A stretch of 53,364 nucleotides of DNA, taken from IMG/VR virus record IMGVR_UViG_3300031841_003004, positions 1 to 53,364 of that record; one strand, given 5' to 3'. The translations under genes and the position numbers were made by a program. How positions within the stretch are numbered: the stretch's first letter is position 1; every line of letters begins with the position of its first letter. The notes beneath the pieces were generated by a model. That model saw nothing but the letters and a program-made list of their open reading frames with translations, ran no database searches and was not told the DNA's origin. Source of the stretch: a virus. Positions 3,001-42,567 of the stretch are shown here, piece by piece.

Positions 3001-6000
3001 ATATCAGACATCCTCTGGCCCTCATTGTTGACCATGTCCTTGTAATTAGCGGAGTTCAGGTTCATGGCCCAGGCACCAATCTTATTTCCAAAAACAACCT
3101 GAGACATTACCCTCCCTCTGAACTTAACGTTCGGACCATCGAAAGGCGTCATAAGAAACTTCATTAGGTCTTTCCACCTAACATCTTGGTTTCCATAGAA
3201 GTTATCCCTAGCTCCAGTTGCCCTCTTTATTCCGTCCTTTACTATGGGGGACATGTTCTCATACCCATCCATGTTTCCGTTAACCAGATCCATGAGCTTT
3301 CTTAGGCTCACTCTAATCTGTCTCTTTGTCATTCCCTCCAGACCTGGGGCCCCTTCGCTGGCCTTTGTAGCCATCTTTATGAAGGACTCAGTGACTCCAA
3401 GGGGGTTGTCAACCTTGTACTTTTCCGACTCTTGAAGCATCCAGAAGGCGGCTTTAATGTTCGGGACAGCGCTGTTCTTGGCTGACGTAAGGGCCGCAAA
3501 GATGTTAAGTTTCGCTACGTTATCCTGAAGCGAACCAGTGATGACGCCGCTGTCGATCATCGACTGAACCTTAGGCCTCGACTCTGTCTCCCAATCGCTG
3601 AAGAAGTCAAGCGGGTTTCTGCCGCCGAAAGTCTCTGCCATTAGCTTTTCGTCAGCTATGTACTTGCCCATAAGGGACTTAAAGTGCGCCCTCCTGGATT
3701 CCTTGTCTGGGAATCGCTCCATGAGGTGCTTAAACATAACCTGATAAGCTACCACCCTGTTGTTCGGTTTGAACCCAGTAGCCTTACCAATCTCCTCCCT
3801 TATAAACTCAAGGTCAATAGGTGACGTACCGTTTTCTATGGCATCTTTGGAGATCAGTTGAGACGCCCTTACATCAGGGTTAGATCCATACCTAAACTCT
3901 TTGCCCAGGTCTTTGGCCTCCCTATCTATAATGGACGAAACGTACTTGGAGAAGGCCTTCAGCTTCTCGACCTCGTTTTTGTACCGAGGAGAATCAGTCT
4001 GATTTCGCCCTTCCATGACTTGAATCTTGGTGGACATGCCTCTCACCTTTCTGCGAATGGTAGAAAGAACAGCCTTACCAAGGATACCTTGAGAGACAGC
4101 AGCCGAAGACATTGCGTTAATGTCTTTTGCAATACCCATCGGGGTATTTATCTGAGTGCTTCGCCTCTTAGACTTATAGTCTTTTATTCTGTCTACGTCG
4201 ATTGTGGTTCCGTCCTCCGTTTCAAAGCCAAAGTAGTGCTGATCAGCACCCATATTGGTTGCCTTTTTCCACCAGTTTACGAAGTGCCATACGTCATTAA
4301 AGGTCTTGGTTATGGTCTCGCTACCTATGTCTTTCTTGAATCCGATGTCATACTTGTAGAACGTTTCCTCCATCCTTACGACAACCTTTCCGTCTTTGTT
4401 GACTGGAATCCTGGTGGGAGACACCATCTTGGACGCCCTGCTATTGCTTTGTGCTCTAGTTCCTTGAGTTCTAGAAGAAACAGAGGCCTTACCGTTCTTG
4501 GCAGCAGCAAACTTTCCAGCGATAGCAATGAGCGAATCTGTGTCTTTGATCGAGAACTCCTTACCTATTGCTCCGTAAGCAGCAGCAATCATCTTGTTGA
4601 TTGCGACACGGATCTTATCGACAGTCTTTAGGTTTACGCTGGAGGGGTCAGCAGCGAGAGCAGACAAGAATTCATGAACCTCCTCTTCAAAAAGCACAGC
4701 CTCAGAGACACCCTCGCTTCTGTAACTCTCAACCTTGGCGTCAATCCTCGCGAGAAGATCGGGGTCGTTGCTCAAGGCCTTTCTAATCTCTGATCTTATG
4801 CTGGCCGCCTTCTTGGGGTTTACGCTGTAGATGTGGGCCATCGGAAGAGCGGCATGAAGCACCTCTTCCATCACGGTTTCAGAGAACGTCTTCGTGCGAT
4901 TCAGAACCTCCGATTCAATGGCCGCGTTGTCTCTTATCTGAGATGGGTTTATGTGAATGGTGTTTGTGGTGGGGTCATACAGCCCGCCCCAGTTTCCGCT
5001 ATCAAACTCCATAGCGGTTTCTGAATCTGGGTAGACGTACATCTTGACTCCCAGATTGTCCAGCATTTTCTGCAAAGAATTAAGGGTCTTTGCTTCTGAA
5101 GACGTTATTCCAGCGACATCGGATCTCCAAGCAGGGTTCCCGTCTTTAGCCCTGGGCGTGCTCACGGCCTTCTCAGGAACCTTTCCAGTATCCACAGATC
5201 TGTTTTCAGTCGTCTCCTTGACTTCTGGCCTGGCATCTTTTACGGCTTCGTCTATGTCAGCGAACTCCGACTCAGTGCTCTTGGGTTCTTTCTCAACCTT
5301 TGACGCCTCCTCCTGAGCCATGTTCATGGCCTCGTCGTAAGACTCAACACGCTTGCCGTCACCGATCTTCCCCTCACCAAGGGTAAAGAATACGACATCG
5401 GGTTTACCCTTGAGGGGAGAGTTGTCTGCATCCCATCCTTCTGGAGCAAACTCAGGATTAAAGTCAACCCTAGCCACGGGCTTAAAGCCAGCGTCCACAT
5501 ATATCTCCTCAAGCTTCGTGGCGTATGCATCCATATACTTGCCGCCCTTCTCTTTAGATAGCTCAAGCATCGCTCCAGCAGCGCCCTTCATGGGGGAGTT
5601 AGGAGACTTGAAAAGACCTCCTATATACCCATCAGAAGTAACGTAACCTCCAGCCATTCCATCCTTAGACAGGAACAAGCTTCCTCCGTCGTTCAGGATC
5701 CTCTGTGCCTCTTCGAGAGACACGGGAGAAACCTGCAAGAACAGATTAGAACCCTTCTCCTCATCTGCTTTTCTTGCAAGCTCCATAGCGCTTACATAGG
5801 CATCTGCTGGAGCCTCTATAAAGTCGTTCACGCTAACCGAGCTAACCTCCGAATTGGACGTCTCTTCCGTAACATCAAGCTTACCGATAGACATATCAAG
5901 GGCTTGACGGGCCTCCTTCATCTTCTCTTCAGCAGCCCTAAATGCTGTTTGATCCTCTCCTCCTAAGTCCTCAAGGGCCGCCTCGTACTCAGCTTTAGCT

Positions 6001-8207
6001 TGATTGTAGTCTTCTATGATTCCCCCTATGTCGTTCTTCTCTTCTTTAAGGGCATCCAGTTCACTCATCGCAGACCTGAGTTCTTCCATGTCTGGCTCTC
6101 CACGAAGCGCAGAATCGTGCAGGTCGTCTATCTTGGATTCAACCTCCTCTATCCTAGCGTCGATAGCAGACACCTTTTCCTCCACATCATTGTAGCTGGA
6201 CTCTGCTTTTTGCTTTTCGTTCAGCTGAACGTTCTTCTCGGCCAGAGATCTTTCAATACCAACCCTAGTAGCTACAGCATCGGCGAGACCTTTTTTCATG
6301 TCCTCCCTAAGATCCTCTGGAAGGTTCTCGTCCATCAGCATCCTTTCCGTGTTCACGATACTGATGTCCAAAGACTGAATTCTTTTGGCGAGGTCTGGGT
6401 CACTAACAACAAGGTCCCTGTAGAAGTTGACTCTCTCTTTAAGCGTTGATTCAGCCTCCGCCTCAAGCTGTTTTGCGTTAGCAAGCATAGAGGCCTTCTC
6501 CTCTTTGTTGAACACTTCTTTAGCAAAAGACCTTATTCTTTTAGCCCTATCGAGCATCTCGTAGGCCGCGTTAGACTGAGAGTCGTATCTCGATCTACCA
6601 AGCGCTCTGGCTCTTTGACCACTAGACTGTTGGTCTATATCAAGTTCGAACACCCCTGTTCCGCTATATCTTGCGGAGACGTGATCTATGGCGGCATCAA
6701 TCGCAGCTTGAGCAGCCGTAACGTTTCCGTCTGCCATCGCCTCGTTATATTTCTTAAAGGCGTGATTTGCGGCCCTATCTATGCCTATTCCGAACAGCTG
6801 CTTTCCTTGCGACTGAGCCCTGGTCTGAAGATCTTGTTTTAGCAAGTCCACAGTCGGGGCTTGCTCTTTTCTTATTCTTCGAATGTGTTCTTGCAGGTCT
6901 TTGTCTCGCTTGACTTTTATCTGCTTTTCGTCGACCATGTGGCCGCTTTCTACAAACTCAAGAACGTCCTGAGGCTTAACCCGCTCTCCATTCACCTCGT
7001 AAGTAGCTGTGGTACCCGCTGCAAGACTAATGCCGCCCATCGGAGCCTCCATCAATCCCTCAAGGGTTACCTCGTCCCAGTCTACGTCACCAGTACTTAC
7101 TAGCTGAGCGGCAAGCTCACCGAAGGACGCACCAGTAGTCTCAACTCCAGTGGTAACTGCGCCTCTCGTAAAGAGGGATCGACCAACCAGACCTGCTGAA
7201 GACTTGCTCGCAAGACCCATAGTTATCGCGTCAGCGACACCTATAGCCACGCCTCTGGAGCCAGCCTCCCATTGCATTCTTTTTCTAACCTCTTCGTTCT
7301 CAAATATTTGAGCTACGTTTTCTGCAGTAGGCTCTTTGTCCCCAAGTTCCTCTTTCACTATTTGCATAATCGTCGCCTCGGCGTCGATCATACCCGACAG
7401 GCCCCCGACGAAACCCCTAGAGAATCCGCCCGCAAAACCAATTCCAGCACCAGCAGCACCACCCACGGCAGCACCTGGACCAGTAGGAGCGGTAACAGCC
7501 GCGCCAGTTCCACCACCTATAGCCGCGAAAGTAGCCCCCGTCGCGAGGCCCGTGCTGCCAGCAACAGCAAGGGTTGTGGCTTCAGTGCCGCCACCTGCCA
7601 TGAGTCCAAGAGAGTGAAAGATAAGTTCAGCGGTCGCGTCAAGGTTCTCTCCCCTAGCAAGCATCCTGTCCCAGTATCCTCCCCCTTCTTCTTCTATCCT
7701 TCTGAGCTCGTTTTCGAGATTAAGGGCTTCGTCGGAAAGCCCCCTGCCCTGAGTCCTTCTTATGGTGTCCGCAACCTTCTGGTAGTCGTCAAGGTCTCCA
7801 AAACCCATTCCAGCAGCAAAGGCTTCTCCTCCAGCAGAGCCCTCATAATAACCGCCAACGAAAGCCCTTGACTGGTCGCCAATAAAGTCCGTAAACCAAC
7901 CAAGGCCAGGTATATCTCTTGTTGCGTCTTCGACGTATTGCCAAATTCCAGAATCCATTTCTTGAGACTCTGGCTCTCCCTCAGGCTCTGGTAGCTCAAG
8001 GGCTTGACGGGGGTCCACAGAAGCAATCTTGTACGTTGGTCTGGGTTGAACCACATCGTCTCCCCCTACTTGGCTTCCAACAAGGCTCCTTGCCTCAGAT
8101 GGATCCATGTTGTAGTTAGGGGAGTTTACGAGAGTGTTTACGATATACTGGTCAGACCTACCCTGTGCTCTGAGAACTGAAATGATCTTCTGAGGGTCTC
8201 CGTTCAT
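1..8207 (-). CDS. Giant polyvalent ejection/internal virion protein, partial (C-terminus beyond window)
   Basis: An open frame begins with ATG at 8207, 18 bases after a TATATTTG promoter box, and runs off the left edge without a stop that I can find, giving at least 2735 residues. Visible regions: a Gly/Ala-rich hydrophobic stretch near residues 200-270 that could insert in a membrane; long charged coiled-coil-like helices at about 535-770; a region near 810-945 that resembles the GNAT-like fold found in phage polyvalent proteins; the sequence EEVLHA near 1113-1118, which looks like a metallopeptidase HExxH with the first His replaced by Glu; and a tail (about 2500-2735) with YVRTPANI, typical of the large polyvalent protein domain LPD38. 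Being last in the morphogenesis operon, after cargo-like genes, it is probably packaged in the virion and injected with DNA. I looked for a virion RNA polymerase motif (DxDGD type) and saw none. Sure of the gene; domain names are tentative. Confidence 0.8.
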   Translation of the reverse strand, partial: MNGDPQKIISVLRAQGRSDQYIVNTLVNSPNYNMDPSEARSLVGSQVGGDDVVQPRPTYKIASVDPRQALELPEPEGEPESQEMDSGIWQYVEDATRDIPGLGWFTDFIGDQSRAFVGGYYEGSAGGEAFAAGMGFGDLDDYQKVADTIRRTQGRGLSDEALNLENELRRIEEEGGGYWDRMLARGENLDATAELIFHSLGLMAGGGTEATTLAVAGSTGLATGATFAAIGGGTGAAVTAPTGPGAAVGGAAGAGIGFAGGFSRGFVGGLSGMIDAEATIMQIVKEELGDKEPTAENVAQIFENEEVRKRMQWEAGSRGVAIGVADAITMGLASKSSAGLVGRSLFTRGAVTTGVETTGASFGELAAQLVSTGDVDWDEVTLEGLMEAPMGGISLAAGTTATYEVNGERVKPQDVLEFVESGHMVDEKQIKVKRDKDLQEHIRRIRKEQAPTVDLLKQDLQTRAQSQGKQLFGIGIDRAANHAFKKYNEAMADGNVTAAQAAIDAAIDHVSARYSGTGVFELDIDQQSSGQRARALGRSRYDSQSNAAYEMLDRAKRIRSFAKEVFNKEEKASMLANAKQLEAEAESTLKERVNFYRDLVVSDPDLAKRIQSLDISIVNTERMLMDENLPEDLREDMKKGLADAVATRVGIERSLAEKNVQLNEKQKAESSYNDVEEKVSAIDARIEEVESKIDDLHDSALRGEPDMEELRSAMSELDALKEEKNDIGGIIEDYNQAKAEYEAALEDLGGEDQTAFRAAEEKMKEARQALDMSIGKLDVTEETSNSEVSSVSVNDFIEAPADAYVSAMELARKADEEKGSNLFLQVSPVSLEEAQRILNDGGSLFLSKDGMAGGYVTSDGYIGGLFKSPNSPMKGAAGAMLELSKEKGGKYMDAYATKLEEIYVDAGFKPVARVDFNPEFAPEGWDADNSPLKGKPDVVFFTLGEGKIGDGKRVESYDEAMNMAQEEASKVEKEPKSTESEFADIDEAVKDARPEVKETTENRSVDTGKVPEKAVSTPRAKDGNPAWRSDVAGITSSEAKTLNSLQKMLDNLGVKMYVYPDSETAMEFDSGNWGGLYDPTTNTIHINPSQIRDNAAIESEVLNRTKTFSETVMEEVLHAALPMAHIYSVNPKKAASIRSEIRKALSNDPDLLARIDAKVESYRSEGVSEAVLFEEEVHEFLSALAADPSSVNLKTVDKIRVAINKMIAAAYGAIGKEFSIKDTDSLIAIAGKFAAAKNGKASVSSRTQGTRAQSNSRASKMVSPTRIPVNKDGKVVVRMEETFYKYDIGFKKDIGSETITKTFNDVWHFVNWWKKATNMGADQHYFGFETEDGTTIDVDRIKDYKSKRRSTQINTPMGIAKDINAMSSAAVSQGILGKAVLSTIRRKVRGMSTKIQVMEGRNQTDSPRYKNEVEKLKAFSKYVSSIIDREAKDLGKEFRYGSNPDVRASQLISKDAIENGTSPIDLEFIREEIGKATGFKPNNRVVAYQVMFKHLMERFPDKESRRAHFKSLMGKYIADEKLMAETFGGRNPLDFFSDWETESRPKVQSMIDSGVITGSLQDNVAKLNIFAALTSAKNSAVPNIKAAFWMLQESEKYKVDNPLGVTESFIKMATKASEGAPGLEGMTKRQIRVSLRKLMDLVNGNMDGYENMSPIVKDGIKRATGARDNFYGNQDVRWKDLMKFLMTPFDGPNVKFRGRVMSQVVFGNKIGAWAMNLNSANYKDMVNNEGQRMSDIVTIDTHVLNTTALINGLWYDAPVVALYGIRKLRELREYLSDSDTFGASKVFKDFTDLEASVLEKAEHALRRYPEERTERDNLIIKNASEIIRDEIDWAVKTADQLELEGDTDTARSIDRAIDKVLNPHVSESPIVKRASVDLVNEVTQYINETFEKNYSPAQVGQLIFADRQVFDFGMFDRSGESKPPRPYVTYSDAIPQVENERRASTMLMFPSENNQNAADSPLYRSRKAEEATMMRDGRRITNKLTDEALSTDATSRRIMEKNSEVKQGQKVGIRLNLNVMKNTGVPVQTMHDKTASGEALRYSPAVMVKNPELFVNQNARRKIVTFQENKFPMASVNGEFLTDQLDQMNFDGVKAFFNPFKHNVFVDASGRPIKSAEEATVIGNTVYLRGDIEYFDYNDPILKRGRKETPKELEDRIKRSPKYDKALKRFKAFSERNGVEFDSEADLELAYDNMPIESKVAMSESEVAANMEEAQRMASGLLKLRKTAGRGARQYGGDIRRQILDNPNNYFTPQSIKEAKGMLKDKSDQDLVAIMSQEGLSRLQDRNDDLGVLAAGELISRAVSRGDLDAIPSIIAEAAAIGTTAGRILRHFRELKSASPKGIEQIIKGEVERRGNTLSESQTARLQDMAGNLFRLQAEHEDLVRRAIAGEEVDAALKAKTDEVKAAERELDTFANGVIERGWGQIGTMLIQGNLLTPMSQVTNVGANMINALGKVAVDAIALPVERMINMFGIESPMKRTYSINAYMYGIRKFGAGFVEALDGIITGQEKDVSEWRVHRGFAPFRSLMAAVGKGDLPMGPDGKAPLSQRMKLAVQGTLGIPAEVMFRFLSLGDVPFRRYVEGIELYQAGRAQGLEGEALAQFIKHPTKKERAAAEMEGRKLTYQEQTGASQAAEDAVAFFERMFTKAFDWIPGADGQAMAKFLIRSNLPYVRTPANILLDTLTYVSPYVAGPRIMNNLKNKDAREAAQNFGKLVVGSMVSQTAVLLLKEGLISG

Positions 8208-10616: not shown

Positions 10617-13600
10617 TTATTGCTGCCCTAAAGCGTGATTCTGCTTAGAGTCTGAAAAATGAGTGTTTACACAGAACAGCTCGAACTGAGTGTTCTGATC
10701 GTTGACTATTGTTATTTCAGCCCAGTGACCCCTGATAGGGTCCCCGTTCTGAGACTGAAGAGTTACGAGGACAAGGTCCTCATCGGTGTTGACCACGGGC
10801 TGACCACTGGTAGTTATTGTAGTGGAGTCTTGCAACCCGTTAAAACTAATGACCGAGTTGGCCGCTCCGATTTGCTCTAGGGTACCTGAGTTCATCCTCA
10901 TTATCGTAGCTCCATTCATAAGAGGCAATGTGTTCACCCTCTTAGTAAATGTAATAGTTCCGTTAGTGAATGACTCTATTCGACCAAGCGGTATAATGTG
11001 CATCGAGGAGTTAACAGACTCGTCTCCACCCATAGCCCCGTACAAAGTACCTTCCTTTTCAACCAGGTCGAAAGACCTAGACGAAGCCCCAAGATCAGTT
11101 GTTACGTCCTCTACATCCCACTGAGTGCTGTTGGTTTCCAGCGACAAGGCGTTAAACACCTTGACCATACTGGGGTTGTAGTTGCTTGCCGTAACGACCC
11201 TAGAGTCAGCCGTTGCCGCCCCGTAAAATCCGTTGTAGTTGTTTCCGTTGTCGTTGACCCTGTGAGCAAAGAATATCTCGGCGTTATCGTCTCCCTGAGG
11301 GTCCACATATACAGCTGAGTACATCTCACTCTCAAGGTACGAGTAAGTGTCTGGATAGAAAGAATATCTGCTTTGCCATACGTTAGAGTCCATGTTATAC
11401 CCCACCGTAAATCCATTCCAGTTACCCGCAGGTCTGAACGTTACGTAGTATGTTTTTTCTTCTGGATCATATCCGCTGACAATCTTTATTCTCGTGGGTG
11501 TGGTTGCCACGAAGTTGTCAAGTTCATTTATGAACAGAGAGTCTATGCCGTTTTCAGAAGCAACAGACAACCCCTCCCTAGTCAACCTGATCAACTTTTT
11601 CCTAAACCTGTCTACGAAGAATACAGTCCCGTCAATCATAAGAACAGATTCGGGGTTGTCCCCACATCCGAAGTCCCCCATGTAATAAGACGCATTTCCA
11701 AGCACGTTAGAGGTAAGCGACGGAATCTGTCCCTGAGTGGCCGTTGTAATGATGTCTTTGTTGACTCCGATCTGAGCAACCCTGCTTTCCTGCACCGCCA
11801 AAAGAACGCCGTCCCTAAAGGATTCTATGTACCTACACGGACCGTTTGCGGAGTCTAGGCTGTAGAAGTTCCCAAGGCTGGCGTTGAATGATGATAGTGA
11901 GAGGTTCGCAACGTCTTCTGCGTAGGCATCGCTATACACGATTCCGTTTTGCCTTCTTACGGTTGCTGAGCTTTCTAGCACCGCATGGGGCCGACCCTTA
12001 CTCCACTCTCTAGACGGGAAGAAGTCAGAGACCGAATGAGATTCGAGCGCAATGGTTACAAAACCCCACTCGTCAGGTAGCTCGGAGTTCCAGCTTCCGT
12101 TTAAGTACTTTGGCCCTGCTGCAGCAGTGGCCCTAATATAGGCGTCTCCATACACCCTGATACTGGGTCCGTGTTGAGTCAGATACGTGCCTTTGTATCC
12201 GCCACAATTTCTTGCCTCTCCGATCTCATAGTACACGTCTTGATTAGACGTTCTTGGAGTTAGCATCTCTACCACTGTGTGTTTACCCCAGAGGTGGTTC
12301 CCCGATGTGGTAGTTCCGTCTGGATAGCTTTGTCCAGTCACAGAGAACCAGTCAAACCCAGGGTACTTTAGCTCAGTGGTACCAGAAACAGCAACTCCAG
12401 CGGTGACCTGAGGGGCGTCTATTATAACAAACGTACCAGTGTGTATGTCGCTTATACCGCCAAGACTCGCGGAGGTTAGAGTGTGCTCAAAGGTTCCATT
12501 ACCACCAGAGTAGGGGAACGTTATCGTGAGAACGTCCTGAGGCCTAAGCCTACCACCACGGTGCTTTACCACCATAGACTCTACCGTGTTTGAGTTCTGA
12601 ATCTTAATTCCCTCAAACGAAGGAGGGTCTACAGAAGAGGTTACATCTGTACCTCCTCTAGAAACAGTTACTGAGGAGCTTACGAATCCAGAACCACTAT
12701 TCGGAAGAAGAGAGGGGTTAGAAAACGCAAAGTCAACTATCTGCCCCGACCTCATCGCTCTTTCAATTCCAGCTATCGGGTTGTCTTCGTCCTGACCGAG
12801 GTTAACTACCCCGACAACATTAAATTCAATAGGTACGGCGTCGGTTGTCCCGTTAGATAGAGGGTACAAAAGGCTCGCTGGCTGGTACTCTCCAACATCA
12901 GCCCCAGTAGTGGGGGAGTGCTTTATGACCCTGAGCCTGTCCCCTTCGGTAAAGGAGTACTCCTTGTTTCCGTTTTTATCTTCTCTGTAGTCCTCTATTG
13001 TTTTCAGGGAAACATAAAGCTGCTTTCTTTCCTCTTGTAGCTCTCCGTCCATATCCCGTGGGGGGAACGCATTACCTACCGTGTAAGAGTTAAAGTCACT
13101 GTATGTACCCATGCCAGAGTACACTATTTGATACTTTCTGGCCCACGCAGGGGGCTCGGAAGAGAAATCAATCCTTGCCGCTATAGCGCCCCTGTTTCCA
13201 GAGGTTCTCTCCCCAGGAGTCGGGGCGTAGAACGATCCAATTCTGTTTACGTTTCCACTTCTGTTAAACTTGTCGTAGTACACAACACCGAGGTCGTGAG
13301 TACATCCAGCCTTGAATGTAGGCTGGGCAAACAAGGTCTTCATGATGACACTTGAATCTGAAACATCCAGCACCTTCATGGATGCGATGTTTCCGTTCAG
13401 GTTAGATATCCTAAGGTTAGCGTCATCCTGACCCGTAAAAGAACCATCTACAGAAGGGAATTGAGTTGTGGTACTATTATTAGTAAATTCTGGACTAGAC
13501 ACTGACGGGTTAGTAGTGACCCTAAAGCTTTTGGGGAAAGGCTTTATCGTAATGTCTGTACTCGTACTCTCTACCTCAAATCCCATTACAAGCCTGTAAT

Positions 13601-15299
13601 CTCCACCCGTAATTCCAAGGAAGTCCCCAGAAGAAATACTTCCAGAGGTTGTTGTGGCTTTTACTTGGCTGTTGTTCGCGTTACCTGTAACTAGTTGATT
13701 TTCCCAAAATACTACATCCCCAAGTTGCTCGGATATAAACTCTTCGAGCTCATCTATAAACGAGCTTAAAGACATGCTTTCCTGAACTGCGTAAGAAATG
13801 TCTGTGCTCCAAGTCCTGTCAAATCGAACCTGGTTATCTATAGTTCCAGCCGTAACGGTAAGTGAGGGGGTGAGCTGCTCTACAACGCCCCCTACAAACA
13901 ATCCCTGTGTGCTGGAAATTGTACTGAATCCAAAGTCGAAGTCAAAACTCAGGGTCAGGTTAAATAAGCTTCCTCCAGGGACTACAGTCGATGCGCCTGT
14001 AAAGAAGTCCGTTGCATCGAAATCTAGAACAACATTGTAGTTTGCATCCGAGCCAGTAGGGGTAGCTGCTGTTGGGACCAAAAAGTCGCTCACCTCAGAT
14101 TCCGAAATGGCGATGGTATTTCCGTTTACTTCGCTTGAATACCTAAGAGAAATGGAGGCATCAACGTCAACGTTGGGCCTACCACTCTCGTAGTTTGAGT
14201 ACATTAGTCTGTTTTCTACAAGTGCCTGTCCCTCGGCTCTAAATGGTACGTCGTCATACAGTTTAAAAACCGTGTCGTCAGAGACACCCCCTTGCTTCAG
14301 GTCGTTGAAGAACCTATAGACCCCCGTGTCTGGGTTGTAAATCGTTTGATTCGATCCATACACGTTTCGAGTCAGTGCTTCATTTGCGTCAAACTCATCA
14401 ATGACAAACCAAGCCCCGTTGTTTCCTACCCTTCCCAGAAGCCTAAGTCTTTCTACATCTGGGTAGTTAACAGCGTAGAGACCGAAATTACCGAAACCCC
14501 TCCAGTTTGTCTGAATCTCACAGATGTTATCCGTGAAGAACAAAAGGCCAGATTCGTCCTCCTCAAGGCCAGAGGCAGAGATTGTGTCTGGATACGCGAT
14601 CTTGGAGTACGGGCCTATAGCAGACTCCTCTCCATCAACATAGATGTACTGCATCGCAAACTGATGCGTAGTCCTATCGAAGTTGTTTACAGAAAGACTT
14701 CTATCTGACTGAAAGACAAACGACACTGGCTGATTAGGAGCTGCCTTTATCGCGTTTAGAGCGTAGTCCAGCTCGTTATTGGAAAGGTCATCGTAGTCTC
14801 CAGCTATGGCCCTATCTACGTTTATTTTTCGAGGTGGGTTTACGTTGTCAGTGAAGTAAAGTACAGTTTGGATCACCCCGTCTTGCTGAAAAGCAGCGTT
14901 AATCACATCAGCCTTTACAAAGCTTGAAGTGGCAAAATTCAAGAACGAGCCCTTGAACACTATCCTATACGTATCTTCAGATGGGTTGTGCTGGTAGATA
15001 ACAGACTCGTCATCGTTAGTCTCGTGAGCAACGAACCAGTATATAAACCCCCTCTGACTGTCAGACGCGCTTCCGATAACTACGCAGTTCTCTCCAAACC
15101 CATCAGGTATTCTGTCTGCGGCGGTAGACGGATCTACAGCTATTGTACCTTTTGTGTTCTTTATAACACCAGTAGAATTTGGCCCGTTCTCAGCTATCGT
15201 GACGTTCAAGGCATCAAGCATTTCTCCAGCCTCAGGCCTAAGAAGCCTTTGGTCTGCGTCTGCTTGAAGTCTGTTCGGTATGGTCTTATCAATAGCCAT
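10617..15299 (-). CDS. Very large tail hub/stabilization (muzzle-like) protein, crAss-like, 1560 aa
   Basis: A 1560-residue protein whose N-terminal part contains features that I associate with the tail stabilization or muzzle protein of crAss-like phages and, more distantly, P22 gp10: an opening MAIDKTIPNRLQADADQRLL, then a beta-propeller-like region with FTDNVNPPRKINVDRA near residue 150, long beta-rich segments, and a final part with FVDRFRKKLIRLTREGL. It follows the two ring proteins directly; its ATG overlaps the previous stop (TAATG). The role would be to form the distal tail tube and hold DNA in. Assignment rests on size, order and remembered motifs, not on a search. Confidence 0.75.
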   Translation of the reverse strand: MAIDKTIPNRLQADADQRLLRPEAGEMLDALNVTIAENGPNSTGVIKNTKGTIAVDPSTAADRIPDGFGENCVVIGSASDSQRGFIYWFVAHETNDDESVIYQHNPSEDTYRIVFKGSFLNFATSSFVKADVINAAFQQDGVIQTVLYFTDNVNPPRKINVDRAIAGDYDDLSNNELDYALNAIKAAPNQPVSFVFQSDRSLSVNNFDRTTHQFAMQYIYVDGEESAIGPYSKIAYPDTISASGLEEDESGLLFFTDNICEIQTNWRGFGNFGLYAVNYPDVERLRLLGRVGNNGAWFVIDEFDANEALTRNVYGSNQTIYNPDTGVYRFFNDLKQGGVSDDTVFKLYDDVPFRAEGQALVENRLMYSNYESGRPNVDVDASISLRYSSEVNGNTIAISESEVSDFLVPTAATPTGSDANYNVVLDFDATDFFTGASTVVPGGSLFNLTLSFDFDFGFSTISSTQGLFVGGVVEQLTPSLTVTAGTIDNQVRFDRTWSTDISYAVQESMSLSSFIDELEEFISEQLGDVVFWENQLVTGNANNSQVKATTTSGSISSGDFLGITGGDYRLVMGFEVESTSTDITIKPFPKSFRVTTNPSVSSPEFTNNSTTTQFPSVDGSFTGQDDANLRISNLNGNIASMKVLDVSDSSVIMKTLFAQPTFKAGCTHDLGVVYYDKFNRSGNVNRIGSFYAPTPGERTSGNRGAIAARIDFSSEPPAWARKYQIVYSGMGTYSDFNSYTVGNAFPPRDMDGELQEERKQLYVSLKTIEDYREDKNGNKEYSFTEGDRLRVIKHSPTTGADVGEYQPASLLYPLSNGTTDAVPIEFNVVGVVNLGQDEDNPIAGIERAMRSGQIVDFAFSNPSLLPNSGSGFVSSSVTVSRGGTDVTSSVDPPSFEGIKIQNSNTVESMVVKHRGGRLRPQDVLTITFPYSGGNGTFEHTLTSASLGGISDIHTGTFVIIDAPQVTAGVAVSGTTELKYPGFDWFSVTGQSYPDGTTTSGNHLWGKHTVVEMLTPRTSNQDVYYEIGEARNCGGYKGTYLTQHGPSIRVYGDAYIRATAAAGPKYLNGSWNSELPDEWGFVTIALESHSVSDFFPSREWSKGRPHAVLESSATVRRQNGIVYSDAYAEDVANLSLSSFNASLGNFYSLDSANGPCRYIESFRDGVLLAVQESRVAQIGVNKDIITTATQGQIPSLTSNVLGNASYYMGDFGCGDNPESVLMIDGTVFFVDRFRKKLIRLTREGLSVASENGIDSLFINELDNFVATTPTRIKIVSGYDPEEKTYYVTFRPAGNWNGFTVGYNMDSNVWQSRYSFYPDTYSYLESEMYSAVYVDPQGDDNAEIFFAHRVNDNGNNYNGFYGAATADSRVVTASNYNPSMVKVFNALSLETNSTQWDVEDVTTDLGASSRSFDLVEKEGTLYGAMGGDESVNSSMHIIPLGRIESFTNGTITFTKRVNTLPLMNGATIMRMNSGTLEQIGAANSVISFNGLQDSTTITTSGQPVVNTDEDLVLVTLQSQNGDPIRGHWAEITIVNDQNTQFELFCVNTHFSDSKQNHALGQQ

Positions 15300-37442: not shown

Positions 37443-39554
37443 TCAGCGGTGCCACTCTTTGACTTTACTCTTTCTGAAGAACACCTTGTCGCTCAAATCA
37501 GATTGCTTCTTTTTTTGACTTCCTTTTTGAGCCGCTAAGAGGGCCAATCCAGAGCTAATCGTAAGGTCGTACTTCGTCCTGTTGTTGATTTTATATCCTA
37601 TCCAATCCTCCAGGGTATTGTTGAAATACATATTTCCGAAGTTTGCGGTCTCTGGTTTTACTCCAACGTGGTCGTGGATGTACGCTTCGATTGCGTGGGC
37701 ATGGGCTTGAATGACGTCCTGAGAATTAGACGGGATTCCCTTTGTCCTGACGTTTACCTTGGAGTTCGGGGCCTTCAAGTGGTCTGGCCTATCCAGAACA
37801 TACCCGTCGTAACCTCTTGACTCAAAATACCTTACTATCCCGTACTTATTGTTCTCGATTAAGAGCGGGAAACCATAGTAGAAGGAAGCCATCAAGACGT
37901 CTTCGTAGAAGATGCTGGCAAGGTCAGGTCGAGAAGCATACTCCACAACGAACATGTTGCTTGGCACGTCATCTCTCATATTGAATTTGGTGTACAAGTG
38001 CAGCGCACCCTTAGAGCCTCTTCCATCCAGAGTTTCATCGAGGTCGTAGGAGTCTACACCACCCACTCCGTACTGAGAATTAGGCGGAACTTTTTTTCCT
38101 CTAACTTCCGCGACTTGATTTCTCATTTCTACGGGTGGCTGCCATGCCACATGGAATCTGCCCCTGGGGTCTGGAGAGAACATTACCTCCTTGTCCTTCT
38201 CCTTCCAAATGAAGTTCCCCCTGACGACTGGGTTCGGGTAGAGGTTATTGTTCCAGTCTATCTGCTGGTAAATCTTACCAATGTTAAATATGCTTCCCTC
38301 TATACTATCTCGAAAGGCTTCGTCTTCGGTTAGCGGGAACTGCCTAATGACCTCGTTCAGCTCTGACGGGTCGTGCTTGAGGCTGTCTCGCTCGTTCTTC
38401 AGGTAGGTCTTACTACCCTGATCAATCATCTCCCCGTCTACGCCTTCTATCTCAGCATCAGGATCATCCACAACAGGATTCCCGTAAAGATCAAAGAACC
38501 CCTCAAGAGCGTGATCAGCAGGTATAAAAATACGGTAAAGGCCGCTCCTGGTCCTTCCGTTGGCATTCCTTTCAGCAGGGTCTGAATCTTCCCAGAGGTT
38601 CTTGTACTCTTCACCGCCTTTGTCCATTGGATTTACGGTGGAGCCCACCAGGGCCTTTCCGATTACTTTCTTACCAACGATGAGACAAGTTCGCTCAATA
38701 CGCCAAGCCTCCCTGATGTCGACTGGCTTCTCCCACTTTCCAGCCTCGTCGAGGTAGAGCATGTGTAGCTTCTCTCCGTCATAGGCATTGTTGGTGGTGT
38801 TTTTCCAGTTGATGATTGTGTTGAGGGCGTCACCCTTTTGTGACGTCTTATTCTTCTTGGTGATTCGTTTCGATGGTTCCCGAAAAGCGAGTTCCATACG
38901 TGGGTTCGTCGTTCCATCCTGTATAGGTTTAAAGAAGAAGGGGTAGGCCTTAAACATTGGCACTACTTTCTTCATGAATATGTTCTCCTGCGAATCTTTA
39001 CCAGTCTTGGACTGGATTCCGAGGAGCTTGTCTTTTACTTGCGTAGCCTCGTCAACAAGTACAGCGGCACAGATATTAGTATAGCCAGAACGGCGACACT
39101 TAGTATATAGCTGACCGATACAACGGGGATCAGCTTCGCACGCAGCCATGTGAAGAAAGATCTCACGTTGGAACGCAAGATACGAAGGATATCCGATATC
39201 GATCTTGCTCCACTGCAGGAACATATAGTGCCTCCCCGTAATGTACGTAGGCACACCATTATTGTAAAACCAAACACCGTTACGCCTCCGCTCAAACTCC
39301 TGCTCGATGTAAGGAGAAAAGGAACGTCGAAACTCGGCTGGCTTCTCGAACCACTCATCCATACTTCTAACCCTCGACAGTTCCTGTGGCACATCGGCGC
39401 GGCGCCACATCTGCATTCTTTTAGGTAGGTCGTGGAATAGAATGTCTGATTTCTTTGGAACTTTCGGAAGAGCAATGTTAAGACCGTGGATCGAAACGAT
39501 CTCACCAATGTCACGTCCGCTGTCCAGCCGAATAACGTCATCGGACTTGTCCAT
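37443..39554 (-). CDS. terL: Terminase large subunit (packaging ATPase-nuclease), 703 aa
   Basis: The ATPase domain shows a Walker-A-like TKCRRSGYT at residues 151-159 (degenerate, as in crAss-like terminases), a Walker B LHMLYLDEAGKW at about 263-274 with the catalytic Glu, and a coupling motif LVGSTVNPM at about 302-310. The nuclease part has GGVDSYD near 498-504 and LLIENNKYGI near 564-573, the acidic residues expected for an RNase-H-like nuclease. It cuts concatemers and drives DNA into the head through the portal encoded next. It starts inside the end of a small zinc-ribbon-like gene (17-base overlap). No small terminase was recognised. Confidence 0.9.
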   Translation of the reverse strand: MDKSDDVIRLDSGRDIGEIVSIHGLNIALPKVPKKSDILFHDLPKRMQMWRRADVPQELSRVRSMDEWFEKPAEFRRSFSPYIEQEFERRRNGVWFYNNGVPTYITGRHYMFLQWSKIDIGYPSYLAFQREIFLHMAACEADPRCIGQLYTKCRRSGYTNICAAVLVDEATQVKDKLLGIQSKTGKDSQENIFMKKVVPMFKAYPFFFKPIQDGTTNPRMELAFREPSKRITKKNKTSQKGDALNTIINWKNTTNNAYDGEKLHMLYLDEAGKWEKPVDIREAWRIERTCLIVGKKVIGKALVGSTVNPMDKGGEEYKNLWEDSDPAERNANGRTRSGLYRIFIPADHALEGFFDLYGNPVVDDPDAEIEGVDGEMIDQGSKTYLKNERDSLKHDPSELNEVIRQFPLTEDEAFRDSIEGSIFNIGKIYQQIDWNNNLYPNPVVRGNFIWKEKDKEVMFSPDPRGRFHVAWQPPVEMRNQVAEVRGKKVPPNSQYGVGGVDSYDLDETLDGRGSKGALHLYTKFNMRDDVPSNMFVVEYASRPDLASIFYEDVLMASFYYGFPLLIENNKYGIVRYFESRGYDGYVLDRPDHLKAPNSKVNVRTKGIPSNSQDVIQAHAHAIEAYIHDHVGVKPETANFGNMYFNNTLEDWIGYKINNRTKYDLTISSGLALLAAQKGSQKKKQSDLSDKVFFRKSKVKEWHR

Positions 39555-39720
39555 ACCGATTGCTTTTGAATGACGGAACGCCGACCTTTTTATCAGCCAA
39601 CTCCATGTACTTTCCGCACTCGCATTTTACGTCGTGCTGGACCTTACCGTCGATAACCTTGATGGATACGCTCCCACTGTGTTCTGCGGTCTTGCCGCAT
39701 TCGCATTTGTACTTGCTCAT
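39538..39720 (-). CDS. Small zinc-ribbon-like protein, 60 aa
   Basis: Starts at ATG 39720 (MSKYKCECGKTAEHSGSVSI). Two Cys-x-Cys-Gly pairs (CECG at about residues 6-9 and again at about 35-38) spaced by some 30 residues suggest a small zinc ribbon. The C-terminus VGVPSFKSNRYGQVR is Lys/Arg-rich. It lies between tRNA-Arg and the terminase and overlaps the latter by 17 bases. Zinc-ribbon proteins of this size are common beside phage terminases; the role here is unknown. Confidence 0.6.
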   Translation of the reverse strand: MSKYKCECGKTAEHSGSVSIKVIDGKVQHDVKCECGKYMELADKKVGVPSFKSNRYGQVR

Positions 39721-39733
39721 GATAAATGAATTG

Positions 39734-39807
39734 CACCCCCGCCAGGATTCGAACCTGGGACCCACAGCTTAGAAGGCTGTTGCTCTATCCAGCTGAGCTA
39801 CGAGGGC
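39734..39807 (-). tRNA. tRNA-Arg (anticodon UCU)
   Basis: The minus strand folds as a standard cloverleaf: acceptor GCCCTCG with CGGGGGT (two G-U pairs), D-arm GCTC/GAGC, anticodon loop CTTCTAA giving UCU, and T-arm CCAGG/CCTGG with loop TTCGAAT. CCA is not fully encoded. It reads AGA/AGG, which by eye are frequent in the late fibre and ejection genes and rare in the early genes. Confidence 0.9.
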
Positions 39808-39813
39808 GTAGGG

Positions 39814-39945
39814 TTACCTCCCTTGACCCCTGTAGGCCTTGGTGTAGTTTTTAGAGCCCTTCAGCTTCGACGTTTTCGTCTTGGCGTGGATTCCAGGTCT
39901 GTTGACCTTGTTTTTCTGGTTGTAGGTGCTGACTTGTTTTGCCAT
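39814..39945 (-). CDS. Tiny basic protein between two tRNAs, 43 aa
   Basis: A 43-residue very basic protein (begins MAKQVSTYNQKNKVNRPGIH, ends KNYTKAYRGQGR) exactly filling the space between tRNA-Ile and tRNA-Arg. Lys/Arg/Asn-rich with no hydrophobic core, it looks like a ribosome- or RNA-binding peptide. I recall close look-alikes in marine Bacteroidota phages but no assigned function. Release from the joint transcript presumably depends on tRNA processing on both sides. Confidence 0.6.
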   Translation of the reverse strand: MAKQVSTYNQKNKVNRPGIHAKTKTSKLKGSKNYTKAYRGQGR

Positions 39946-39962
39946 AGTGTTGAATTAAAATG

Positions 39963-40036
39963 TTGGGGCGGCGGGATTCGAACCCGCGACTTCCTGTGTA
40001 TAAGACAGACGCTCTAACCAACTGAACTACGCCCCA
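39963..40036 (-). tRNA. tRNA-Ile (anticodon UAU)
   Basis: The minus strand gives acceptor TGGGGCG with CGCCCCA (perfect), D-arm GTTC/GAGC, anticodon stem TCTGT/ACAGG, loop CTTATAC with UAU, and T-arm GCGGG/CCCGC with loop TTCGAAT; discriminator A. Most bacteria read AUA with a lysidine-modified CAU tRNA, so an UAU tRNA would read AUA without that enzyme. Confidence 0.88.
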
Positions 40037-40079
40037 GTGTGATCCGCCCCGTTTACGTAGGGGGCCGTCTTGTCGAAAA

Positions 40080-40295
40080 TTATTTACTAGCCCGTTTCTT
40101 GGGTCTATTGTTTGCTCTGTTCAGAGACGATTTGATAAAACGACGGATTCTACCACCCTCGTGAGCGGCGTCCAAGCCATCACCGTTACCATACGTCCCT
40201 TTCTGACGGTTATACTTATTGAGTTCCGCTCTGTACTTTTTGGCCTTTTTGGTTTTGCCGTACTTCCTGTACTCATCTTTGTAGTCTCTTTTCAT
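40080..40295 (-). CDS. Small basic protein, possible degenerate HNH-like, 71 aa
   Basis: A 71-residue Lys/Arg/Tyr-rich protein (MKRDYKDEYRKYGKTKKAKK) with the segment GNGDGLDAAHEGGRIRRFIK, followed by SSLNRANNRPKKRASK. Similar phage proteins carry D-x-x-H-x-x-x-N patterns like an HNH core; here the His and Asp are present but the full set of HNH residues is not. It follows the T9SS-tagged gene by one base and precedes tRNA-Ile. Function unknown. Confidence 0.55.
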   Translation of the reverse strand: MKRDYKDEYRKYGKTKKAKKYRAELNKYNRQKGTYGNGDGLDAAHEGGRIRRFIKSSLNRANNRPKKRASK

Positions 40296-40296
40296 G

Positions 40297-41673
40297 TCAC
40301 CTGATTATTGTCACATGACCATTGATTATATATGACTCTCCGTATCCTTCGCATTCTACTCTGTAAATATACGTGTCGTCAGGGACATAGTATTCATCTC
40401 CTCCTAGCCAGATATCCTCAGAGTAGAAGCTCTCCCACACTATCTCTCCAGACCTAGAAAAAACTCGCATCCGCCAGTCCTTCCAACAGTCTGGGTCGGT
40501 CTCTGCTCCCCAAGCGTCGTTGACCCCGTCATTGTCTGGGGTAAACGAATTAGGGATGTAGATCTCACAGTCAGAGAACGGGTTGATACACGGCTCCCCT
40601 GTAGCACAATCCACCTCTACCATGTCGTATTCGTAAATCATAGCTGTATCTACTTGATACTCAATATTGTATATAGTGTCAGTTAAAGTAATATACGAAG
40701 TGTCGACTTCTGTAATGTACAGTGTGTCAGTTAGATACACATACGTGGTGTCGTAGAAATACCAGTTTACCGCTACAGGAATGGTGTCGTTGATTATGAC
40801 CGTATCCGTCTCAGTGATGTATAGCGTATCTGGGGGTAGCTCTATATATGTGGTATCGTAAACGAAAGTGACCACGGGTAGAATTTCTGTAATCGTGTCG
40901 TAGACAAACACCGTGTCGTACTCCAGGACTACAATGGTGTCAGGCGGCAATTCTACATACACCGTGTCATACACGTAAATGACTTCTGGTATATCTTCTG
41001 GGCAAGTGATAATCCAGTTGTCTTGCCAGTTAGAGTCCTCATACAGGCCACAACAGTCGGGAGTTATACCGCCACCAATCCCCCCTACTTCAGCCCAACC
41101 TCCGTTATCAGAATACATGGTGGGTCCGTAGCTAATCTGCCATATCACAGCCTGAATACCCAGACCCTGATTCATCCAGAAATCAAAAGCATTTAGAAGA
41201 TTAGCATACAGGCTAATCCCACCCGACTGATAGAAATCGCCCAACGGAAACGTAATGGTATCCCCAGTATAGTATGGAGGGTCTACGTTGTAATCCGACC
41301 AGACATCTAGGTTGGTCCAGTTTGTTGACGAAGTTGTGGTCGTAGCAGAGTATATCCACCCAGGATGATTACTGTCGTCGGGAATACTAAGGCCCCAAGG
41401 AAAATCCCACCCTTGGTTCATGGCGTTGCAGTTCGAGTCCAAAGCCTGGAAACCGAACTGTATCTCGGCAATCCCAGTTGGGCCCGCTGCGCCCCCGCAA
41501 CTTTCGGTGTTGTTGAACGCTACGGTTATCTCACCAGCTACTGGATCGAAGTCAAGTAGCTCTAGGTCACATTGAGCGACAGAGCTAAAAGAGAAAGCAA
41601 AACAAGCAGCCAGTAGATAGATACTAGTCTTCGTACTCCCCGTTCCATTCTTCGTTAAAATAGATGTGATCAT
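40297..41673 (-). CDS. Secreted phage protein with T9SS type B sorting domain (CHU_C/gliding motility C-terminal), 458 aa
   Basis: The start at ATG 41673 gives a signal peptide: a Lys-containing n-region, a hydrophobic core (SIYLLAACFAFSFSSVAQ), and a likely cleavage after VAQ near residue 34. The mature part begins with a Cys-rich beta domain, then about 120 residues (235-355) of repeated YDTVYVELPPDT and LTDTLYITEVDT-type units. Residues 369-458 are a clear gliding-motility-associated domain: NSFTPDNDGVNDAW, then MRVFSRSGEIVW, and the ending GHVTIIR. In Bacteroidota this domain directs export by the type IX system and anchoring. A phage protein made with it should therefore travel to the host surface. 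Alternative upstream GTG start at 41724 is less likely. Confidence 0.85.
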   Translation of the reverse strand: MITSILTKNGTGSTKTSIYLLAACFAFSFSSVAQCDLELLDFDPVAGEITVAFNNTESCGGAAGPTGIAEIQFGFQALDSNCNAMNQGWDFPWGLSIPDDSNHPGWIYSATTTTSSTNWTNLDVWSDYNVDPPYYTGDTITFPLGDFYQSGGISLYANLLNAFDFWMNQGLGIQAVIWQISYGPTMYSDNGGWAEVGGIGGGITPDCCGLYEDSNWQDNWIITCPEDIPEVIYVYDTVYVELPPDTIVVLEYDTVFVYDTITEILPVVTFVYDTTYIELPPDTLYITETDTVIINDTIPVAVNWYFYDTTYVYLTDTLYITEVDTSYITLTDTIYNIEYQVDTAMIYEYDMVEVDCATGEPCINPFSDCEIYIPNSFTPDNDGVNDAWGAETDPDCWKDWRMRVFSRSGEIVWESFYSEDIWLGGDEYYVPDDTYIYRVECEGYGESYIINGHVTIIR

Positions 41674-41720
41674 TGTTGCACGAAGATACCCAATTAAAGG
41701 ATCCGACGCGCATGGTGTGG

Positions 41721-41966
41721 TCACTTGCTGAACTTCTCAGCGAACCCTCCAGAGTAGTCTTTTTCTTCTTCGACACGTCCATTTTCTTTGAGTTCTTTTA
41801 CCATCTGCTCCAAGGATTGCCTCTCCCTGAGAAGCTCCTTGCAGTCGATAGCGGTTTGTTTCACGGATTGAAGTTCGGCCTTCCTAGCGCTTCCAGTGAT
41901 CTCTTGGTCGACGGGCTTTTTCACCTCTTCGATCATGTTATCAATGGCGATAGCCATCGCGTCCAT
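41721..41966 (-). CDS. Coiled-coil protein of unknown function, about 81 aa
   Basis: Begins at ATG 41966 (MDAMAIAIDNMIEEVKKPVD), 25 bases after the co-chaperonin stop. An in-frame ATG at 42044 would add 26 residues (start MAKNTTGSRSRSSST) and overlap that gene; I cannot decide. The product is helical and charged (AELQSVKQTAIDCKELLRER, then EQMVKELKENGRV), typical of a coiled coil. It lies between the co-chaperonin and the T9SS protein gene. No family recognised. Confidence 0.55.
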   Translation of the reverse strand: MDAMAIAIDNMIEEVKKPVDQEITGSARKAELQSVKQTAIDCKELLRERQSLEQMVKELKENGRVEEEKDYSGGFAEKFSK

Positions 41967-41991
41967 GAGCTTCACTGCAGCGGTAAGGGTG

Positions 41992-42567
41992 TTAAAGCTT
42001 GTAGAGGAGCTCCGTGACCGCGACCCTGTAGTATTCTTTGCCATCGATTTTAATTCTATAGTCTCTGTTCTTTTTGAAGCCAACCACGTCGCCATGGGAT
42101 ACTCCAAGCTCTTCAAGCTCTGGGGTGTCAAAGGATACCACACCTGTAGTTACTTCTTTCTCTTGTAGGGAAACCACCTCAACGAGTCCGCTATGTCCAG
42201 GATCATCCTCCTCAACAGGCTGCAGCAGACACCAACCCTTGACAGGGTGTATGCCAGCTTTATTCTTAAAAGCAATAGCTTGATTCGCAGCAGCGTGTTC
42301 GTCGTCGTAGTGGACAACATAGTGATTGTCTTCTTTGACCAGTGGCGAACCGCCATGGATAACCACATGATGATGGAAGTACAGGGTATCTCCAGCTTCC
42401 GCGCCAGTGTTATACTTGAGTGGAGCAGCCAGGATTTTGCCTTCTGTAGTTCTGTTCTCAAACTCATTGAACTTGGTCTCTATGTACAGTTCTAGTCCCG
42501 AATCGGTGGTTATGGTGTCTTGAAGCTCTTTCTCTATTTCTACAATAAATTTATCTAGGGTCTTCAT
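41992..42567 (-). CDS. Tandem GroES-like co-chaperonin (two Cpn10-type domains), 191 aa
   Basis: Two consecutive Cpn10-like halves are visible. Residues about 1-97: FIVEIEKELQDTITTDSGLE, a mobile-loop-like stretch, and EGKILAAPLKYNTGAEAGDT. Residues about 98-191: KGWCLLQPVEEDD, SGLVEVVS, TGVVSFDTPELEELGVSHGD, and VVGFKKNRDYRIKIDGKEYY-VAVTELL, which matches the GroES ending GDxVxFxK..xIKIDGxEYxxxxExDIL. Cpn10 caps GroEL; T4 gp31 and others are phage examples. A double-domain form recalls plastid Cpn20. No GroEL is present, so it would work with host GroEL, perhaps to fold the capsid or tail proteins. The mobile-loop residues should be checked. Confidence 0.75.
   Translation of the reverse strand: MKTLDKFIVEIEKELQDTITTDSGLELYIETKFNEFENRTTEGKILAAPLKYNTGAEAGDTLYFHHHVVIHGGSPLVKEDNHYVVHYDDEHAAANQAIAFKNKAGIHPVKGWCLLQPVEEDDPGHSGLVEVVSLQEKEVTTGVVSFDTPELEELGVSHGDVVGFKKNRDYRIKIDGKEYYRVAVTELLYKL

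Follow-up and report, generated by a model that had tools for sequence, protein, structure and literature searches.

A mobile phage gene family with type B sorting domains, predicted to be displayed on infected cells by the type IX secretion system of the host

Why should a phage carry a gene whose product has the makings of a bacterial surface protein? This question is raised by the IMG/VR virus record IMGVR_UViG_3300031841_003004, a marine phage contig of 53,364 bases that is called the window here and makes up the entire record. A gene at 40297..41673 (start codon ATG 41673; minus strand, as for all window features given below) encodes a protein of 458 amino acids made up of a predicted signal peptide, an N-terminal domain (N-domain), a stalk with YDT motifs and a C-terminal type B domain of the type IX secretion system (T9SS). 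This architecture of the cargo gene, as we call it, was established from the open reading frame (ORF), from profile matches and from 37 viral loci with close homologues. Our work suggests that the gene probably encodes an optional, "moron"-type surface protein that would be exported by Sec and the T9SS of the host, held by a host barrel of the PorP/SprF family, and used to alter what the cell surface binds.

The sorting domain (residues 365-458; 40300..40581) carries much of this idea. A first-pass annotation had likened the C-terminus to gliding-motility-associated domains and had named the TIGR04131 and CHU_C profiles as the check. Both matches are significant: The Pfam family CHU_C is found at 40.2 bits (E 3.7e-10; gathering cut-off 27), and TIGR04131, with a cut-off of 35, reaches 36.4 bits when the genome is searched and 37.3 bits when only the C-terminal 94 amino acids are scanned, whereas the whole cargo protein gives 33.3 bits, slightly under the cut-off. 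Thus, a domain above the curated cut-offs is located at the very C-terminus, as is typical of type B cargo. Among the homologues, TIGR04131 matches 20 of 20 C-termini and CHU_C 16 of 16 mature proteins, and the alignment reveals the conserved elements PN.FTP..DG.ND, R.G, W.G, VY.Y and G.V...R, possible counterparts of the five motifs A-E that are needed for secretion. Among solved structures, the model of the domain best matches a T9SS substrate in complex with the translocon (8glk_D, probability 1.00, E 4.9e-3), and the same list also contains the C-terminal domain of RemA as well as RemZ and PorZ. Moreover, a profile built from the phage sorting domains matches the C-terminus of the Aureispira grappling hook protein GhpA (E 6.5e-8), and the identity to the sorting domains of Flavobacteriales cargo is 29-44%.

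The second feature of type B cargo, an N-terminal Sec signal peptide, is present as well. The leader (residues 1-33; 41575..41673) ends in ...FSFSSVA and is followed by the mature start QCDLELL, with a predicted cut at A33-Q34. In a rule-based test that considered the residue at position -1 and a hydrophobicity threshold, all 50 homologues with a readable start had Ala, Gly or Ser immediately ahead of the mature Gln-Cys; the hydrophobicity of the core was above the threshold in 49 of them and equal to it in the remaining one, and the leader sequences differ from each other. This agrees with the first-pass annotation, which had placed a signal peptide on ATG 41673. We rejected a lipoprotein reading of the AQC leader, since Gln at position -1 is unfit for a lipobox and the Gln-Cys belongs to the mature domain. 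The cargo protein contains 12 cysteines, more than any other among 33 proteins of the window that were examined, and this fits the expectation for export.

Between the two signals lie the N-domain (residues 34-225; 40999..41574), which has three invariant cysteines at positions 35, 59 and 82, and the low-complexity stalk of YDT, DTV and LPPDT motifs (residues 226-350; 40624..40998). The roughly 120 residues of YDT/LTDT repeats noticed in the first-pass annotation correspond to this stalk of 125 amino acids, in which 13 Asp-Thr pairs are spaced 6-14 residues apart; shuffled sequences contain 2.8 such pairs on average, and none of 20,000 shuffles reached 13. In the alignment of the family, the N-domain is unusually conserved across phages (mean column identity 78%), and it is followed by a stalk of variable length, sometimes by an additional CARDB-like module (a reading of the sequence rather than a profile match), and by the sorting domain. 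No Pfam family and no PDB match for its model were found for the N-domain; with a predicted local distance difference test score (pLDDT) of 57, this model is too poor to derive a function from the fold, and profile matches to antibody chains were dismissed as chance.

To which genome does the gene belong? The window encodes a terminase, a portal protein, virion proteins, GroES and an M15 endolysin. The terminase is 40-48% identical to those of the Flavobacterium elemo phages and an uncultured spring podovirus, and it also matches phages of Cellulophaga, Tenacibaculum and Maribacter. The contig is related to the podoviruses of Flavobacterium and Cellulophaga. The initial assignment of the cargo gene to the phage was borne out, since phage genes flank it in dozens of independent contigs; host contamination was rejected on the basis of this synteny.

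In viruses, the gene is part of a large family. The N-domain is present in 74 viral loci, and all N-domain ORFs that reach the C-terminal end, 54 distinct ones, also carry the type B domain; the sole distinct N-domain ORF without it (L038) is cut short at the chimeric end of a contig. In another 30 ORFs, the sorting domain follows an N-terminal part that is different or highly divergent, and two short patterns alone detect 286 type B stretches in viral contigs. In the cargo of eight contigs (L132, L134, L136, L151, L157, L161, L163 and L168), repeats of the pattern GCTDP.A.NYNP.A..DDGSC precede the type B domain. The pairwise ratios of nonsynonymous to synonymous substitutions (dN/dS) have medians of 0.09 for the N-domain, 0.13 for the stalk and 0.10 for the sorting domain, which, at about 0.1, indicates purifying selection on all parts of the protein. 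A pattern scan of 84,980 genomes and a search of six host-type genomes did not detect the N-domain, and among 399 Flavobacteriales genomes it was found in a single one, fused to a hydrolase in a chimeric contig end. These counts led us to reject a domain borrowed from the host and indicate that the N-domain is nearly phage-only and almost absent from bacteria. In isolated phages, no cargo gene was found: The isolate elemoE has no sorting-domain match, and no sorting domain occurs in the proteins that isolates encode at this site (elemo gp32 and gp33, and a protein of the Manatee Spring phage). In this search for isolated phages, the sorting domain was matched only by two huge records of uncultured phages, apart from one short faecal fragment with the divergent domains. 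The uncultured phage genomes LR745206.1 and LR756502.1, each of about 640 kb, contain type B sorting domains at several places.

Several observations demonstrate that the cargo gene is exchanged between phages. Over 33 phages (528 non-independent pairs), the identity of the N-domain does not track that of the terminase (rho 0.06): The N-domains are 60-64% identical in phages whose terminases share 87-91% identity, whereas in one phage the N-domain shows 86% identity and the terminase 50%. The position of the gene in the genome differs as well. In phages similar to the window, it is located between a small ORF after GroES and the terminase large subunit (TerL), in a second clade it is inside the structural block (between homologues of orf16909 and orf16123), and in L030, whose terminase belongs to the same PHROG family but is too distant for a BLAST match, it is found on the strand opposite to its neighbours. 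Except in L030 and L163, the gene is on the same strand as the late genes; L163, a close relative, carries a different type B cargo (5257-6285) at the same site and opposite to the phage genes. The contig L030 also encodes, near its type B cargo, a protein of 844 amino acids that has both a signal peptide and a T9SS domain of type A (11444-13975, minus strand; TIGR04183, 34.3 bits versus 23). In another phage contig, L036, a membrane histidine kinase (11450-12328, minus strand) matches many kinases, and PorY-type T9SS regulators are weak matches among them.

The gene is also absent from close relatives at the very same site. In a sample drawn from the best 80 TerL matches of a capped scan, in which frequencies are rough, a cargo gene occupies the site in 4 of the 56 relatives that have the two borders and a TerL of 76% identity or more, and is missing from 52; the gap is shorter than 700 bp in 25 of the 56 and as short as about 400 bp in many. 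In other relatives, the site contains glycosyltransferases, a DegT aminotransferase, an epimerase, or genes that were labelled HNH or MazG-like from their sequence only. In the genus of the window, this hypervariable, tRNA-bearing site before TerL covers 39700-41720 of the window and the same interval in L254-L332. It is bordered on the left by a conserved small ORF after GroES (41721..42044; 64-90% identity in most relatives) and on the right by TerL (37443..39554; PHROG 6681, E 9e-211), and it is marked by a tRNA-Arg (tct; 39733..39807), often together with a tRNA-Ile (tat; 39962..40036); a tRNA search found the same tRNAs at the site in relatives. A small basic protein downstream of the cargo gene (40080..40295) also occurs in relatives that lack the cargo. 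The first-pass annotation had placed the gene in a late operon with a co-chaperonin. The neighbour is indeed a GroES-like co-chaperonin (41992..42567; PHROG 13932, E 1.2e-42), but the cargo gene is optional and mobile and is no fixed part of a late operon.

A small gene of 52 amino acids (MDVSKKKK...NGEYED; 41624..41782) lies directly upstream. In the +1 frame, it overlaps the last part of the small ORF that follows GroES, while its own 3' end overlaps the first approximately 16 codons of the cargo gene. Its ATG is conserved in 46 of 47 relatives, and the ratio of nonsynonymous to synonymous polymorphisms (pN/pS) in its frame is 0.06. Because ATG 41673 is inside this gene, the first approximately 16 cargo codons serve both genes and the leader is extended; it has 33 amino acids in the window as compared to 13-31 in most relatives. 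With its own conserved ATG, this small gene replaced an earlier idea of a programmed +1 frameshift in orf41721.

How might such a protein reach the surface? Export is the natural reading of a signal peptide combined with a type B signal. Sec would remove the leader, and disulfides could form in the periplasm; the host T9SS translocon would then read the uncleaved type B domain and hand the protein to a host barrel of the PorP/SprF family, which would hold it on the outer membrane with the N-domain projecting on the Asp-Thr stalk of about 120 residues. According to published work (PMC9143113, PMC12618676), type B domains stay uncleaved and bind PorP/SprF barrels, and adhesive properties of type B cargo are known or predicted. 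The phage would have to borrow such a barrel, since none was found in 13 cargo-bearing phage records, whereas seven of seven host-type genomes encode 4-17 each. The proposal of the first-pass annotation that the protein is sent to the host surface can be retained for export, which is backed by the signal peptide and the selectively maintained type B signal, but the anchoring that it had assumed is that of type A cargo and is not known for type B. On the evidence of these signals, export and anchoring of the cargo protein are very probable.

It is more difficult to decide what the protein does there. The N-domain would most likely change what the surface of the infected cell binds, and we tentatively consider receptor masking the likeliest benefit: Masked receptors would spare the cell further phages and would keep progeny virions off spent cells and debris. 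Superinfection exclusion, cell aggregation and altered gliding, which the first-pass annotation had named as possible uses, are all candidates; the site shared with glycosyltransferases and sugar enzymes and the trade of the gene between phages favour a modification of the surface or of receptors. Several points weigh against this picture. The argument for masking is one of context, because the N-domain has no known relative and no confident fold. Exclusion proteins are usually made early and the cargo gene is among late genes, although we infer the late timing from gene position only. The surface location is itself predicted from the sequence. A type B substrate may depend on a shuttle of its own in a matching amount, and the phage brings none. 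Finally, a role in the virion is conceivable since one clade has the gene in the block of virion proteins.

Four other explanations have to be weighed against a surface protein that alters binding. The same display could serve adhesion: Infected cells would clump, or would attach to particles or to uninfected kin, and progeny would thereby be released among new hosts. The adhesive grappling hook protein as the nearest solved relative of the sorting domain, the long stalk, and the cargo of other phages that joins CARDB-like or cysteine-rich repeat segments to the same sorting domain would all fit such an adhesin; however, it has no recognised binding domain, and an adhesin with varied targets might be expected to vary more than the highly conserved N-domain does, so that we consider this explanation rather unlikely. 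Shuttles also suggest a different kind of action: In F. johnsoniae, they are in limiting supply and act in stoichiometric amounts (PMC12618676), and an abundant phage type B domain from a phage that brings no shuttle could fill the scarce PorP/SprF shuttles or the translocon, leaving SprB-type adhesins undisplayed, with an arrest of gliding and a loss of phage receptors. Such a decoy would have no need of a conserved N-domain and a stalk that are both under purifying selection; a shortened cargo without the N-domain (L113) is an exception, and we consider the idea improbable.

One may also think of a component of the particle whose C-terminal domain binds the host T9SS or PorP-like proteins at adsorption: One clade has the gene between structural genes, and assembly in the cytoplasm could make use of a domain that mimics host cargo. 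The signal peptide present in all 50 homologues would, however, take the protein out of the cytoplasm, and a gene that is absent from 52 of 56 close relatives and placed elsewhere in other phages is hardly what a virion protein would require; we thus regard this role as very improbable. A gene of cellular origin that was picked up by chance, or that contaminates the contig, and that has no function for the phage would account for the host-type sorting domain and for the fact that metagenome bins of Flavobacteriales hold the closest cellular copies. It is contradicted by the phage-gene flanks in so many independent contigs, by the nearly phage-only N-domain and by the purifying selection, and is hardly credible. 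Returning to the favoured surface protein, one may speculate, with considerable reserve, that a dedicated class of phage-only surface proteins rides the type B shuttles of the host: A protein that unrelated phages trade among themselves would repaint infected cells and might fix them to the gliding track or take them off it, and which phages profit would depend in part on the shuttle set of the host.

If this is true, it is common for phages to place proteins of their own on infected cells that are still alive, by way of the type IX system, which is found only in Bacteroidota and their relatives. This would provide a concrete and testable route by which phages control how abundant marine bacteria glide and adhere and what their surface presents, and an N-domain family that has no known cellular counterpart. 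As far as the literature was searched, with most subscription journals outside, the type B family, its phage-only N-domain, the exchange between phages, the swap site and the dependence on host shuttles are new.

Phage-encoded T9SS cargo as such has a precedent in Cryophage, for which type A cargo has been reported and superinfection exclusion already proposed (Bellas et al. 2020, PMC7468147). In both cases, phage genes with a T9SS sorting domain vary among phage variants; however, the Cryophage type A signals are attached to an endoglucanase, a GH39 protein and a PA14 protein, whereas the present family combines a type B signal with a phage-specific N-domain and a stalk and is large and conserved in podoviruses. 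Genes with a T9SS sorting domain near head genes of Bacteroidota phages are also described for crAss-like ORFs (de Jonge et al. 2019, PMC6949934), which have BACON repeats where the present family has its own N-domain. In UniProt, which holds viral entries named "gliding motility-associated C-terminal domain", the viral protein A0A516LPX6 belongs to the same family over nearly its whole length (73% identity to the window protein) and is given no function, and A0A7S9STS8 of Virus NIOZ-UU157 as well as A0A6J5NJX2 and A0A6J5L8Z9 of uncultured Caudovirales share the sorting domain, as annotation only. The C-terminal signal class is the same as in the SprB/SprF and PG1035/PorP pairs (PMC9143113, PMC12618676). 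Cellular type B cargo often has its shuttle gene adjacent, whereas the phage gene is an orphan, like three F. johnsoniae substrates. A possible functional precedent for receptor masking by a phage protein in the outer membrane is Llp of phage T5, a receptor-blocking exclusion lipoprotein that stops adsorption (PMC9586334); Llp is a small lipoprotein that takes another route to the outer membrane, and the likeness is thus one of function, with no homology claimed.
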